In this document: piece after piece, positions 9,523 to 13,935 of the stretch
How positions within the stretch are numbered: position 1 is the stretch's first letter
Layout of the letters: the number at the start of each line of letters is the position of its first letter
Virus record (IMG/VR): IMGVR_UViG_3300038416_000078
Location: 1-23,114 of that record
Strand: one strand, 5' to 3'
Length of the DNA: 23,114 bases
Source of the DNA: a virus
Position numbers and translations under genes: made by a program
Notes under the pieces: model-generated
The model's input: only the letters and a program-made list of their open reading frames with translations
The model's database searches: none
Told to the model about the DNA's origin: nothing

Positions 9523-9798
9523 ATGACAAAACGGTGGATTACGGTTCAACTCAAACTCATCGATGGGATCTACTCTGGCGACGCTCCGCCTCCCATCATA
9601 GCTAGCGCCAGCTTCGCCAACCGCGACCTTGTGGCCCCGGCCGACGTCGATCTCGGTGTCCTTGGGGGTGAAATCTCCCGTCTCTTGGTGGAGATGGTTG
9701 GAACCGTCGCCCGGATCACCGAAGCTCCCAAACAGATAGTCGCCAAGTCGCCCGAAGCGGCCGCGGCGAAGAACGTTTCTCCGAAGGTGACGAGATGA
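9523..9798 (+). CDS. hypothetical protein (91 aa)
   Basis: ATG 9523 has CGAAAGGTGAC immediately upstream, so the start is well supported; the longer frame upstream crosses the hairpin and the previous gene. The N-terminal half is strand-like (RWITVQLKLIDG, PIIASASFANRDLVAP), with a helix (LGGEISRLLVEMVGTVARI) and an Ala/Lys-rich tail. No motif is recognised. Codon use is less GC-rich at third positions in the first 30 codons than in its neighbours, which could mark recent acquisition. The stop overlaps the next start at 9795. Confidence 0.6.
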   Translation: MTKRWITVQLKLIDGIYSGDAPPPIIASASFANRDLVAPADVDLGVLGGEISRLLVEMVGTVARITEAPKQIVAKSPEAAAAKNVSPKVTR

Positions 9799-10163
9799 CA
9801 ATCGAACCGCAGCCGGCTCCACCCGAGCCGACCAAGATCACGACCGAACTCCTCGACTACATCGAGGGCCTCTACGCCGGCACCGTCCAGCCGGCGGGTC
9901 CGGTCCTCATCCCCGTCCGCGAGCTCGTGGAGGCCGCACGACTCGGCACGGCCTGGATGGAGGCGATGGCTCTAGTGCCGGAGGGCGGTCGACTGGACCT
10001 TGGGCAGAATACGGCCGGAAAGGTCGGCGTTAGAGCGTCCGGCTGGCCCGGGTTCGTAGACGGGCAGTTGATGATCGTCGCCCTCATAGAGCGTGATGAC
10101 CCTGTCGAGGCTCTCCAAGAGCTGATCGAGAAGTTGCGAACAGAGAAGCTGCGGACGCCATGA
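9795..10163 (+). CDS. hypothetical protein (122 aa)
   Basis: This gene starts at ATG 9795, with CGAAGGTGAC 3 nt before it and a 4-nt overlap with the previous stop. The N-terminal 15 residues are Pro/Glu-rich; the rest alternates helices and loops (LLDYIEGLYAG, IPVRELVEAARLGTAWMEAM, ALQELIEKLRTEKLR). It has no cysteines or membrane segments. The stop overlaps the start of the 29-aa membrane peptide at 10160. Function is unknown. Confidence 0.62.
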   Translation: MTIEPQPAPPEPTKITTELLDYIEGLYAGTVQPAGPVLIPVRELVEAARLGTAWMEAMALVPEGGRLDLGQNTAGKVGVRASGWPGFVDGQLMIVALIERDDPVEALQELIEKLRTEKLRTP

Positions 10164-10249
10164 AGCTCCTCGTCGAAGCCTTCGGCTACTTCCTCTTCGG
10201 CTTGGCGGTCGTCATCGGCGTCTACCTCGCCGCGACGTGGCAGCCATGA
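10160..10249 (+). CDS. 29-aa single-pass membrane peptide
   Basis: A very short ORF sits exactly between two ATGA overlaps (10160-10163 and 10246-10249). After MKLLVEA it is hydrophobic almost to the end (FGYFLFGLAVVIGVYLAA) and finishes TWQP. It is therefore a single transmembrane helix with almost no soluble part. A similar 29-codon membrane peptide with the same junction style lies at 18295-18384. Possible roles include a membrane-active regulator or a holin-like accessory peptide; none is proven. Confidence 0.55.
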   Translation: MKLLVEAFGYFLFGLAVVIGVYLAATWQP

Positions 10250-10785
10250 GACTTCTCGCGATCGACCCCGGCCCCGAACAGTCGGCCTGGCTCGTCTGGC
10301 TCGAGGACGCCGTCGAGGACATGGGCATCGAGCCGAACGACTCGCTACTCGCCAAGGTCCGCCGCGGCTGCTTCGCCAACTGCCAGGCCGTCGCCATCGA
10401 GAAAGTAGCAAGCTTCGGGATGCCGGTCGGAGCCGAGGTGTTCGAGACGGTCTTCGCCTCCGGTCGCTTCGCCGAAGCCTGCCGCGGCATCCCGCTCTAT
10501 CGGCCCTCTCGGATGTCTATCAAGATGCACCTCTGCCACTCGGCAAGGGCCAACGACGCCACGATCCGCCAGGCGCTCATAGACCGCTTCGGTGGCAAGG
10601 AACACGCAATCGGGCGAAAGGCCGCTCCTGGGCCACTGTACGGAGTCCACGCGGACCTGTGGAGTGCCCTCGCGGTCGCGGTGACGATCGCCGCCGTCCG
10701 AAATCACGAAGTCTACATAGCCGAACTCGAAGAGGCTATCCGACTCCTAGAGGAGCGCTCTCGAAGAGACTCAGTGATGGAGTAG
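10246..10785 (+). CDS. RuvC-like Holliday junction resolvase family protein (179 aa)
   Basis: ATG 10246 overlaps the previous stop. The RNase H-like fold of RuvC is indicated by LLAIDPGPEQSAW with Asp7 at the first strand, VAIEKVASFG with Glu52 at the end of a strand, and VHADLWSALAVAVTI with His135 and Asp137 near the C-terminal helix. These are the acidic metal-binding positions of RuvC-type resolvases, which cut four-way DNA junctions so that branched, replicating phage DNA can be packaged. The length fits phage RuvC proteins. The C-terminal AELEEAIRLLEERSRR is a helix that may add dimer contacts. The stop TAG forms part of a -10-like TAGAAT. Confidence 0.8.
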   Translation: MRLLAIDPGPEQSAWLVWLEDAVEDMGIEPNDSLLAKVRRGCFANCQAVAIEKVASFGMPVGAEVFETVFASGRFAEACRGIPLYRPSRMSIKMHLCHSARANDATIRQALIDRFGGKEHAIGRKAAPGPLYGVHADLWSALAVAVTIAAVRNHEVYIAELEEAIRLLEERSRRDSVME

Positions 10786-10873
10786 AATGGACAAGTCCGT
10801 AAGGGCACCTGGCCTAGGGCGGGCGGCAGACTCCAAGCTGCCGCCCCCAGGCCGGCTTGGAGAGGTGAACATG
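10783..10873 (+). promoter_or_regulatory. leader with H-type pseudoknot masking the ribosome site of the ParB block
   Basis: Stem 1 is perfect over 9 bp: GGGCGGCAG (10821-10829) with CTGCCGCCC (10838-10846). The loop 10830-10837 contains CTCCAAG (10831-10837), which pairs over 7 bp with CTTGGAG (10856-10862). The second strand overlaps the Shine-Dalgarno region GGAGAGG (10859-10865) that lies 5 nt before ATG 10871. Loop sizes of 1, 0 and 9 nt suit a compact H-type pseudoknot. TAGAAT (10783-10788), a -10-like hexamer, would start transcription just before it. GGCCT/AGGCC (10811-10815 with 10849-10853) could compete. The region is not a recognisable tRNA or known riboswitch class. Confidence 0.6.
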
Positions 10874-10978
10874 GAACGTCCTTCCTCAACCGCCGCTCCG
10901 TTGCGGCTCTCTGACCTAACCCCTGCACAGCGCGAGCTCGTGCTCGCCCTACTTCGGCAACGAAAGGTGACAAGGTGA
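10871..10978 (+). CDS. 35-aa ORF directly downstream of the pseudoknot
   Basis: ATG 10871 has GGAGAGGTGA upstream; the frame is also open from ATG 10787, but that start has no ribosome site and would translate the pseudoknot. The peptide begins MERPSSTAAPLRLSDL and ends in a basic helix (PAQRELVLALLRQRKVTR). Its stop overlaps GTG 10975 of the ParB-like gene. It may act mainly as a coupling or leader peptide: controlling its ribosome site would control the coupled ParB-like gene. A small DNA-binding helix is the alternative reading. Confidence 0.5.
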   Translation: MERPSSTAAPLRLSDLTPAQRELVLALLRQRKVTR

Positions 10979-11856
10979 CAATCCCAATGGCAGACCTCGT
11001 GATCGACGAGGCTATCCAGATCAGAGACAAGCTCGACCCCGAGTTGGTTGAGCACTACGTCGAGTGCTTCGACGATCTTCCACCCATCGACGTGTTCCAG
11101 ATGGCTGTGGGCTACCTCGTGGCTGACGGGTTCCACCGCTACGCCGCCGCCAAGAAGCTTGGTAAGACCGAGATGGAGGCCACGTTGCACGAGGGCGGTT
11201 GGGACGAGGCGGAGGCGTTCGCCATCACCGCGAACACTAAGCACGGTAAGCCGCTAACCCGAGTCGAGCGGAATCGCGCTATCAAACGCCTGCTCGACCT
11301 CGGCTGGAACGATTCGAAGATCGCCCGCGAGATTGGCGTCTCTAGTCATACAGTTGGAAATATTTCAAGTGCCCGCGCCCTCCGGAAAGAGGTTCCCTAC
11401 ACGCCCGACGAGCTTTCAGACACGCATCTCTACAGGATCGCTATGGTGGAAGAGCCGGGTGATCGGCTCGCTCTGGCAGATCGTGCGGCCAAGGATCACT
11501 GGACAGAACCCGAGACCCGGGCTGCCGCTAAGACGCTCCGCAATCCGGACGTCGCTCCGGAGGTCAAGACGGCCATTCTCGACGGGTCCCTACCGCCGAT
11601 TACCAGCGCGGGTGGGCAGGTCGTCATCCTCGAAGATACGGTTCAGCGTATGACCGAAGAGGCTCTTCGGAAGGACGCGACACTCGCGGTCGTCGCGTTC
11701 AACAGCGCGGCTGCCCAACTTCGCAGCTTCACCGCAGACGAGATCGCGGCTGTACTCGACCCTAGGACCTGGGCCGTCACCGTGGCCGAGTTCAGCTTGA
11801 CGTTGGTGACCCTGGACGCGCTGATCGCCCTCCTAGCGATAAAGGTGGCGTCGTGA
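10975..11856 (+). CDS. ParB/Spo0J-type DNA-binding protein (293 aa)
   Basis: The start is GTG 10975 (GTGA overlap), with AAGGTGACAAG upstream; ATG 10987 is a possible alternative. The N-terminal part is a ParB-N domain: VIDEAIQIRDKLDPELVEHY, PIDVFQMAVGYLV, and the signature ADGFHRYAAAKKLG at about 50-63. TANTKHGKPLTRVERNRAI follows, then a helix-turn-helix WNDSKIAREIGVSSHTVGNI at about 111-130. The remainder is helical. ParB-N folds bind or hydrolyse CTP in chromosome ParB and act as nucleases in some phage proteins; with the HTH this one would bind a specific DNA site. No ParA ATPase is next to it, so a transcription or replication role is likelier than partition. No obvious parS-like repeat is seen nearby. 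Confidence 0.8.
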   Translation: MTIPMADLVIDEAIQIRDKLDPELVEHYVECFDDLPPIDVFQMAVGYLVADGFHRYAAAKKLGKTEMEATLHEGGWDEAEAFAITANTKHGKPLTRVERNRAIKRLLDLGWNDSKIAREIGVSSHTVGNISSARALRKEVPYTPDELSDTHLYRIAMVEEPGDRLALADRAAKDHWTEPETRAAAKTLRNPDVAPEVKTAILDGSLPPITSAGGQVVILEDTVQRMTEEALRKDATLAVVAFNSAAAQLRSFTADEIAAVLDPRTWAVTVAEFSLTLVTLDALIALLAIKVAS

Positions 11857-12344
11857 TGACGCCCACGCCGCTGTTCGTCCTCCGCGAGATCGTCGCGGAG
11901 CGAAAAGAGGCCGCCCTCCGCGGTGAACTTGTCACCGCGGAGGATGTAGCCCGACGCTGGGAGAGCCATCACAAGGTTCGGCCGCTGCTGCCAGAGGACG
12001 CGACTCTCCGGGGTTGGCTCCATGAGTACGTCAAACAGCGAGCCCGTGACTTCATGGGGGACGTGCGGGACCCGAAAGGCAGCCGCATTATTCTGAGCCC
12101 GATTGCGCTCCGGCCTAGCAAGGCAGATCGGGGCTATATCGGGCGCGAGGCCATGCCTGTGGGCGATCACATTAACCTCGGCAATCACCAAGTCGCTGTC
12201 GGGACGCGCAAGCGCACCGAGGGCATCAATCGTCTCGCCGCGAGTGACCAGGCAATCCAGCTCGGCAGGAGCATGGCCGAGCCACTAGGCGAGCTAGCCG
12301 CAGGGGTATCGGCCGAAGAGGACGTGGAGACGGCTAGCCGATAG
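11853..12344 (+). CDS. hypothetical protein (about 163 aa)
   Basis: Either GTG 11853 (GTGA overlap) or ATG 11856 starts this gene. The N-terminal 70 residues are helical and charged (FVLREIVAERKEAALRGELV, TAEDVARRWESHHKVRP, LRGWLHEYVKQRARDF) and resemble a small helix-turn-helix adaptor. The middle is basic, and the C-terminal part is Gly/Ala-rich (MAEPLGELAAGVSAEED). The stop TAG is followed at once by a leader with hairpins. It is coupled to the ParB-like gene and could modulate it, but no family is recognised. Confidence 0.6.
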   Translation: MMTPTPLFVLREIVAERKEAALRGELVTAEDVARRWESHHKVRPLLPEDATLRGWLHEYVKQRARDFMGDVRDPKGSRIILSPIALRPSKADRGYIGREAMPVGDHINLGNHQVAVGTRKRTEGINRLAASDQAIQLGRSMAEPLGELAAGVSAEEDVETASR

Positions 12345-12429
12345 GGTGTACTCTGTCGTCGCGAGGGAGCAAAAGTCCTGCTCCCCGATCTCTTGGCCGG
12401 CCTTATGGTGCCGGGAGTAGGAGATTGCC
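12345..12429 (+). promoter_or_regulatory. structured leader of the tail-protein pair
   Basis: This 85-nt gap contains TGTACT (12347-12352, -10-like, no good -35). A 7-bp hairpin GGGAGCA/TGCTCCC (12365-12371 with 12379-12385, 7-nt loop) follows, then a 5-bp hairpin CCGGC/GCCGG (12397-12401 with 12410-12414). The ribosome site AGGAG (12419-12423) lies 6 nt before GTG 12430. CTCCC of the first hairpin could also pair with GGGAG (12413-12417) just before the ribosome site, so some translation control is possible. Confidence 0.4.
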
Positions 12430-13188
12430 GTGGCGATCACCCTCACCTCTGCCATCGGGTACAACGATGGCGTCCTCCCTGTCTCTGGCGACTTGCCGTT
12501 GCCTTGGCGTGCTCCCTGCCTCGTCGTCATCGACAGCGAGTTCATGCAGGTCCTCTCCGCTGGTCCGACCGGCTGGGAAGTCGTCCGGGCCCAGCAGGGC
12601 TCGCTCCCCGCTACCCATGCCTCCGGCGCAGTAGTCGGACCCTACGCGGTCGTCCCCATCTCGCCGGTCTACGGCCCGACGGGAACCATCGCCGAGACCA
12701 TTCCGAGAAACGTCTGCACCGAGACCAACAACACCATCTTCACGACCGGCCAGGTAGCGATGCAGCTCATCTGGCTCCGGGCCGGGATGACGGTCTCCAA
12801 CATCTCGATCTGCACCGCGACGACTCTCGCGACGACCCCGACCCACAACGCGATCGGGCTCTGCTCCCTCAACGGAACCGTGCTCGCCTCTTCGGCGGAC
12901 CTCCTGACACTCGCGATGGCCGCCAACACCCTCTACAAGTGGCCGATGGCCGTCCCGTATCTCGTCCCGACGACGGGCTACTACTACATCGCCTGGGGCC
13001 TCGTCTCCGGCGGCCAGCCAACCGTCAAGGGTCAGACGGCCAAGACGGACGGCACGCTCGCTGGCACCACGCCTCCAGTCTTCGGCGTCTCCTCCGTCGC
13101 CTACGTCTCGGGTCTCCTCACCGGTCCCTATACGCCGATGGCCGCTGGCGCTCAGACGGTCGGCGGCTTCTGGGCGGCGGTGAGCTAG
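12430..13188 (+). CDS. virion surface/tail-associated protein, first of a paralogous pair (252 aa)
   Basis: GTG 12430 follows AGGAG at 6 nt. The first 70 residues form a repeat-type module common in phage tail and fibre proteins: VSGDLP, VVIDSEFMQVLSAGP, WEVVRAQQGSLPATHASGA (an attachment/interface segment with the typical HASGA end). The rest is strand-rich and Thr/Ala/Gly-rich, with GYYYIAWGLVSGGQPTVKG near the end, a pattern seen in small trimeric jelly-roll-like virion proteins. It would be a decoration, tail-tip or receptor-contact protein. The next gene encodes a clear paralog with the same architecture. The placement before the terminase, away from the other structural genes, is unusual. 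A long alternative ORF in another frame here is a shadow. Confidence 0.65.
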   Translation: MAITLTSAIGYNDGVLPVSGDLPLPWRAPCLVVIDSEFMQVLSAGPTGWEVVRAQQGSLPATHASGAVVGPYAVVPISPVYGPTGTIAETIPRNVCTETNNTIFTTGQVAMQLIWLRAGMTVSNISICTATTLATTPTHNAIGLCSLNGTVLASSADLLTLAMAANTLYKWPMAVPYLVPTTGYYYIAWGLVSGGQPTVKGQTAKTDGTLAGTTPPVFGVSSVAYVSGLLTGPYTPMAAGAQTVGGFWAAVS

Positions 13189-13935
13189 ATGGCCGTCACC
13201 CTGACTGCCGCGATCGGCCCGAACGACGCCTGGATCCCCGTCTCGGGCAACGTCCCCGCCCCCTATGTCGTCCCCTTCCTGCAGCTGATCGACTCCGAGG
13301 TCGTTTCGGTCATCCAAGGCGGGGCGACGTACTGGCAGATCCTCCGCTCTCAGCTTGGCACCTACCCCGCCGGCCATGCCTCGGGCGCGATCCTCCAGCC
13401 TTTCTCCCAGACACCTACCTTCCCGACCGGCTCTCCCTACATCGCGGAGACGCTGCCTCGGGAGCAGATCCCGGAGACGGCTACCGTCATCGGCACGACA
13501 GGCCAGATCGCCCTCCAGGCCGTCTGGCTCTCCGCCGGCCAGCTCGTCTCCAACATCACCGTCTGCACCTCCGCCACGGCGGCAGGCACGCCGCTCCACT
13601 TCGCGATCGGGTTGGTCGACCAGTACGGCAACCTCTGCTGCTCGTCCGTCGACCAGCTCGCTACCGCGATGGCGGCTCAGACGGCCTTCACCTTCGCCAT
13701 GTCGACGCCGTACCGGGTCGCAATCAGCGGTCTGTACTACGTCGCCATCGGCTCGGTTGCCACGACCGTCCCGACCATCAAGGGCGTCGCTCGTGTCAAC
13801 GGTGTACTCGCCGGCACGGCTCCGCCCCTCTGCGGAGTCAGCGGCACAACCTACGCCACCGGAGCTCTTCCGTCCGTCTGCACCATCATGGCCGCTGCGG
13901 CTGTGACGACGTCCTGGTGGGCGGGCCTGTCCTAG
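13189..13935 (+). CDS. virion surface/tail-associated protein, second of a paralogous pair (248 aa)
   Basis: ATG 13189 follows the previous stop with no gap; GGTGAG just upstream is the likely ribosome site. The product aligns by eye with its neighbour along its full length: AVTLTAAIGPNDAWIPVSG against AITLTSAIGYNDGVLPVSG, LIDSEVV against VIDSEFM, PAGHASGA against PATHASGA, TTGQIALQAVWLSAGQLVSN against TTGQVAMQLIWLRAGMTVSN, and YYVAIGS against YYIAWGL. Loops differ most, as expected for surface-exposed receptor-binding or decoration proteins. Tandem duplication followed by divergence is the simplest origin. A strong terminator follows 17 nt after the stop. Confidence 0.65.
   Translation: MAVTLTAAIGPNDAWIPVSGNVPAPYVVPFLQLIDSEVVSVIQGGATYWQILRSQLGTYPAGHASGAILQPFSQTPTFPTGSPYIAETLPREQIPETATVIGTTGQIALQAVWLSAGQLVSNITVCTSATAAGTPLHFAIGLVDQYGNLCCSSVDQLATAMAAQTAFTFAMSTPYRVAISGLYYVAIGSVATTVPTIKGVARVNGVLAGTAPPLCGVSGTTYATGALPSVCTIMAAAAVTTSWWAGLS

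Follow-up and report, generated by a model that had tools for sequence, protein, structure and literature searches.

The window analysed here is the entire 23,114-base record of an uncultivated virus (IMGVR_UViG_3300038416_000078), possibly a genome fragment, with a G+C content of 65.7%. A structured leader lies between a gene for a RuvC-like Holliday junction resolvase and a small operon, which consists of a 35-codon ORF, a ParB-like gene whose product contains a helix-turn-helix domain, and a gene for a protein of 163 amino acids. The features of the region were:

10237-10785, plus strand: RuvC-like Holliday junction resolvase, upstream of the leader (phrog_1770, E=9.6e-17)
10783-10788, plus strand: putative -10-like box TAGAAT, overlapping the RuvC-like stop codon; TAGAAT also stands at the matching place in the L214 leader, one of the homologous leaders described below
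10806-10810, plus strand: CACCT, possible partner of AGGTG (10863-10867), which would add further nested masking of the Shine-Dalgarno tract (predicted from the minimum-energy fold of 10805-10880)
10811-10815, plus strand: 5' arm of the lower helix (P1ext), GGCCT, competing with stem 2
10821-10829, plus strand: 5' arm of stem 1 (P1), GGGCGGCAG, read directly
10831-10837, plus strand: 5' arm of stem 2, CTCCAAG, in the apical loop and complementary to the Shine-Dalgarno region
10838-10846, plus strand: 3' arm of stem 1 (P1), CTGCCGCCC, read directly
10849-10853, plus strand: 3' arm of the lower helix (P1ext), AGGCC, inside loop 3 of the pseudoknot
10856-10862, plus strand: 3' arm of stem 2, CTTGGAG, the 5' half of the Shine-Dalgarno tract
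10859-10868, plus strand: Shine-Dalgarno tract GGAGAGGTGA before ATG 10871, read directly
10871-10978, plus strand: 35-codon ORF behind the pseudoknot, with neither a family match nor coding bias
10963-10970, plus strand: second Shine-Dalgarno site, the ParB-like gene's own, AAAGGTGA, read directly
10975-11856, plus strand: ParB-like protein (phrog_1033, E=4.7e-25)

Stem 1 consists of nine Watson-Crick pairs (10821-10829 with 10838-10846) and stem 2 of seven, formed by CTCCAAG (10831-10837) and CTTGGAG (10856-10862). Loop 1 is the single nucleotide A10830, loop 2 has no nucleotides and loop 3 is CCAGGCCGG (10847-10855, 9 nt). H-type geometry suits one nucleotide crossing a stem 2 of 7 bp and nine nucleotides crossing a stem 1 of 9 bp. 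The lengths of both stems and of all three loops given in the initial annotation proved exact on direct reading. Its statement that the pseudoknot covers the Shine-Dalgarno site holds in part, since stem 2 overlaps the tract by GGAG (10859-10862) alone, whereas AGGTGA (10863-10868) lies just outside. The tract at 10859-10868 matches the 3' end of the 16S rRNA.

No other pseudoknot of such quality was present in the window, and it was the best at any of the window's start sites. Pseudoknots of equal size occurred 71 times in 10,071 dinucleotide shuffles (one strand), i.e. 0.007 per window. In a second control, distal leader parts were randomly paired with start-site parts from approximately 5,400 real start sites; here, 0.0009 equally good cases are expected among the 149 start sites of the window. 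The annotated compact H-type pseudoknot involving the Shine-Dalgarno region is therefore better than chance. A chance arrangement in GC-rich sequence, possibly within a coding region starting at ATG 10787, would be helped by the base composition of the window and by the picking of striking features by eye; additionally, the frame of the 35-codon ORF stays open upstream to ATG 10787, which is preceded by GGAG. We consider this reading improbable, given the start-site expectation, the independent recurrence in relatives described below, and the absence of coding bias in the 28 codons from 10787 to 10870 (log-odds -0.1 versus 0.2 to 0.44 for most genes). As these codons lack coding bias and ATG 10787 sits inside the -10-like TAGAAT (10783-10788), ATG 10871 is the likelier start. 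A scan for sigma-70 sites gave none, and within 9700-12700 no GC-rich hairpin with a T run behind it, as in an intrinsic terminator, was found. As annotated, the 35-codon ORF and the ParB-like gene share the letters GTGA (10975-10978), which hold the TGA stop of the former and the GTG start of the latter. Since the ParB-like gene has its own Shine-Dalgarno site AAAGGTGA, it need not depend wholly on coupling.

A second set of complementary arms, left out of the initial annotation, allows a nested hairpin. GGCCU (10811-10815) pairs with AGGCC (10849-10853) and, with GG/CC in between, this lower helix lengthens stem 1 to approximately 16 bp. The resulting hairpin is the predicted minimum-energy fold. 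The lower helix uses most of loop 3 and leaves 2 nt before CTTGGAG, and thus competes with stem 2. Judged by helix length, 2 nt are too short to reach the apical loop, so that the lower helix and stem 2 should be mutually exclusive. Nearest-neighbour energies were approximately -34.5 kcal/mol for the nested hairpin and, with rough pseudoknot penalties (the textbook values 7 and 9.6), approximately -22 to -25 kcal/mol for the pseudoknot. The nested hairpin is hence predicted to be more stable by approximately 10 kcal/mol, and the pseudoknot may seldom form without help. This difference favours a reading in which the long bulged hairpin (10811-10853) alone exists, as an mRNA-stabilising, processing or pausing element or a spacer that guards against read-through, and in which no pseudoknot forms because the match between loop and Shine-Dalgarno region is fortuitous; GC-rich loops often resemble the anti-Shine-Dalgarno sequence. 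We regard it as unlikely, since a loop that fits the start site at 7/7 positions within 9 nt would be improbable even given the hairpin, and since this kind of complementarity shows covariation among the homologous leaders in related phages.

Scans of viral_contigs, genome_contigs and 396 Acidobacteriota genomes gave no homolog of the window leader itself, so that its own stems offer no covariation. An exact motif scan yielded 0 matches, as did blastn of the leaders against phage records, and a scan of viral_contigs and genome_contigs with the ParB-like protein found no close relative. Rfam gave no match, either at the gathering score or at a permissive E-value, in line with the earlier remark that no known consensus was recognisable, and none of the papers searched reported such a leader. 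A degenerate scan (CAGACTCC...CTG...GGAG) gave 36 matches, with both stems in L007 only. The identity of CAGACTCC in the window and L007 was not taken as a shared motif, as the same scan showed it not to be general. Locus L191 carried stem 1 but just CTCC/GGAG, resembled an intergenic hairpin and was left out of the count; the matches in L193 and L175 were weak, and the match of L313 to GGACTGATCCCC was without a comparable leader context. A strict scan additionally found pseudoknots in L019, L020 and L161, which were not at convincing leaders and in the case of L019 lay inside a gene.

The nearest relative found, L002, encodes a RuvC-like protein that is 72% identical, and has neither the leader nor the ParB-like gene. 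Comparison of window 10690-12343 with L002:1720-2000 showed the ParB-like cassette in the former and a small cysteine-rich gene in the latter; the two sequences rejoin at window 12343. As they differ between the RuvC-like gene and this point, the stretch that holds the leader and the ParB-like gene is exchangeable. A second structured leader (window 12343-12429, L002:1998-2086, 87% identical) precedes a tail-like gene at 12430. Its AGGAG site lies inside a hairpin, and one pair of a GCCGG-type hairpin changes from C-G to T-A between the window and L002. The window genes 12430-13188 and 13189-13935 look like tandem paralogs (VTLT.AIG... start), and the same pair is present in L002.

The three-helix plan, composed of a lower helix, a 5' bulge, stem 1 and a loop complementary to the start site, was found in eight leaders besides the window, mostly at the heads of replication operons of related phages. 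Among 76 RuvC-like relatives, L007 showed this geometry in a start-site pseudoknot (stem 1 of 7 bp, stem 2 of 8 bp, loops 1/0/9) in the order GGGCCAG, A, CTCCTGAC, CTGGCCC, 9 nt, GTCAGGAG. In L201, which contains a homolog of the downstream L007 gene, a start-site pseudoknot was formed by TGGCGGT/ACCGCCA and CCCTCAG/CTGAGGG. The loci with helicase relatives of L201 served as a separate test set; here, L212 and L216 scored 17 and 12, with expectations of 0.0 and 0.08 from swapped controls. Start-site pseudoknots are rare, and in 1.0 Mb of the relatives' contigs only the known cases of L212 and L007 scored at least 12. The operons behind the sister elements contain a Vsr-like gene, a DnaD-like gene and a primase/helicase. 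Since two of the helicase relatives are located in Acidobacteriota MAGs, some phages with sister leaders may be acidobacterial, i.e. may infect Acidobacteriota.

The lower helix, which played no part in choosing the nine leaders, was present in 9/9 of them (4-7 bp, with a 5'-side bulge of 3-6 nt). Its summed length was 45 bp, whereas shuffles gave 24.3 (P = 5e-5) and swapped flanks gave 27.6 (P = 2e-4). Being independent of the search, it ties the window leader to the other eight.

The replication-operon leaders are located at L212:428-548, L215:1725-1845, L214:4546-4667, L213:4575-4700, L036:2972-3081 and L216:2241-2362. Their layout comprises a -10-like box, a GGAYUGAUCC hairpin with a varying stem, and a pseudoknot with the Shine-Dalgarno region; this leader is newly described here and is absent from Rfam. 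In three of them (L212:527-548, L214:4641-4667 and L213:4679-4700) the start-site arm occurs in two tandem copies, e.g. GGGCAGA AGGGCAGA, and one apical loop is complementary, in full or in part, to either copy. Downstream of TATAAT in L216:6288-6369 lies a further short leader, which has a long lower helix and precedes an ORF of 108 codons; the letters of its stem 2 are the same as in the window (CTCCAA/TTGGAG).

Blast revealed homology between the leaders of L212, L215 and L214. In a plain sequence alignment of the three, the pseudoknotted structure was 97.8% paired, versus 42-50% for slid structures. Nine pairs had changed on both sides, six in stem 1 and three in stem 2; the pseudoknot helix is fully paired with compensatory changes across these three versions. 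The L213 leader was found by a covariance model containing no stem 2 pairs; immediately ahead of its start codon stands GGGATGAA, to which the loop TTCATCCC is complementary without a mismatch. With L213 added as a fourth row, stem 2 remained 100% paired, and 4/7 pairs showed compensatory changes. On this comparative sequence evidence, the pseudoknot is a real, evolved structure in the group of L212, L213, L214 and L215. An A/T-only candidate from L225-L227 was rejected. In their homologous leader stem 1 is present and the loop matches in part, without forming a clean stem 2; the matches of L225 and L227 to the covariance model likewise lack one.

The covarying leaders carry the upstream hairpin with the conserved GGAYUGAUCC and precede Vsr-like, DnaD-like or primase-helicase operons, whereas the window leader is without this hairpin and has the ParB-like gene downstream. 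The covariance model of the replication-operon leader (R1) did not match the window; its 0 matches in 396 Acidobacteriota genomes came from a run without positive control and are hence uninformative. The window shares with the leaders of L212, L213, L214, L215, L216 and L036 the lower helix, the 5' bulge of 3-6 nt and stem 1, as well as an apical loop of approximately 8 nt pairing with the Shine-Dalgarno region. Judged by this architecture, we would rather regard the window leader as a sibling of the replication-operon leaders than as a proven member, because it has no close homolog and no GGAYUGAUCC hairpin and because the element is missing from most relatives' contigs.

The initial annotation had suggested that the ParB-like protein could bind its own leader. 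In such a case the element would be an operator through which the protein represses its own translation. Autogenous pseudoknot operators are known in phages, namely that of T4 gene 32 (PMC535899), and the helix-turn-helix domain of the ParB-like protein could be taken in favour of this reading. However, no start site in 86 loci with ParB-like relatives (L078-L163) carried such an element at or above the listed scores, and it was found in 0/5 Acidobacteriota ParB loci. The same two stems, looked for upstream of ParB-like genes in relatives, were thus not found, although this is a weak test for this exact protein, as the relatives were at most 39% identical to it. Furthermore, the genes behind the sister pseudoknots are unrelated (Vsr-like, DnaD-like or small, none of them ParB), the ribosome site that belongs to the ParB-like gene itself is left unmasked, and no RNA binding by a ParB of this type was documented in the literature searched. 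Because its relatives lack the element and the sister pseudoknots stand before non-ParB genes, the suggestion is unsupported, and we consider autoregulation by the ParB-like protein very unlikely.

A few riboswitches, the mRNAs of ribosomal proteins and T4 gene 32 provide known examples of a pseudoknot at a ribosome site. The window leader, whose pseudoknot is thus of a known kind, is likely to exert a two-state translational control. In the operator of T4 gene 32, the initiation of translation of a DNA-metabolism gene is controlled by an H-type pseudoknot in the phage mRNA leader (PMC535899), and the likeness to the window lies in such a leader pseudoknot. In T4, a pseudoknot of approximately 28 nt at the 5' end serves as nucleation site for gp32, and the ribosome site follows downstream in an unstructured U/A-rich stretch. 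In contrast, stem 2 of the window itself uses the Shine-Dalgarno region, and no UUAAA/UAAA repeats were found 3' of the pseudoknot (10863-10900).

The SAM-II, SAM/SAH and preQ1 riboswitches also use compact H-type pseudoknots with the second helix at the ribosome site (PMC7367207, PMC9410914), and two mutually exclusive states are typical of riboswitches. A small-molecule riboswitch of this compact kind, sensing a metabolite, nevertheless has a low probability in our view. Unlike these classes, the window has no Rfam match and no conserved ligand-pocket letters, and it shows a C/G-rich loop 3 with a competing lower helix. Aptamers conserve the letters of their binding pocket, whereas the nine leaders share the architecture and hardly any loop or junction sequence. 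The downstream genes are replication and ParB-like genes, which also speaks against a metabolite sensor.

We favour, with somewhat better than even confidence, a bistable translational switch in which the nested hairpin and the pseudoknot are the two states of the leader of a small phage operon. We infer that both states form. During RNA synthesis the 5'-bulged hairpin (10811-10815 with 10849-10853, plus stem 1) would form first. It would leave CTTGGAG and the Shine-Dalgarno tract free, so that the 35-codon ORF is translated, and a ribosome terminating on this ORF would help to start the ParB-like gene. If the lower helix opens, CTCCAAG could pair with CTTGGAG to give the H-type pseudoknot, which would cover or crowd the ribosome site and lower translation. 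Which state prevails could depend on a factor that binds, on the passage of a ribosome or on the kinetics of folding. The missing coding bias of the 35-codon ORF and the ParB-like gene's own ribosome site weigh against the switch. Since pseudoknots of the same build head replication operons in several related phages, the start-site pseudoknot is probably a real on/off control of translation.

More tentatively, the window leader and the replication-operon leaders could represent a single, rapidly evolving class of bistable leader RNAs in phages. Its members would have hardly any sequence in common, and the competition of a 5'-bulged lower helix with a loop-to-Shine-Dalgarno pseudoknot would set the time at which early or middle operons are translated.

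The same plan is found at operon heads in poorly studied environmental phages, where the helices are rewritten from phage to phage while their complementarity is kept. As the architecture and not the letters is preserved, sequence-based searches and Rfam miss such leaders. If the element of the window works alike, it would add a second type of operon, with a ParB-like gene, and a compact two-state leader.
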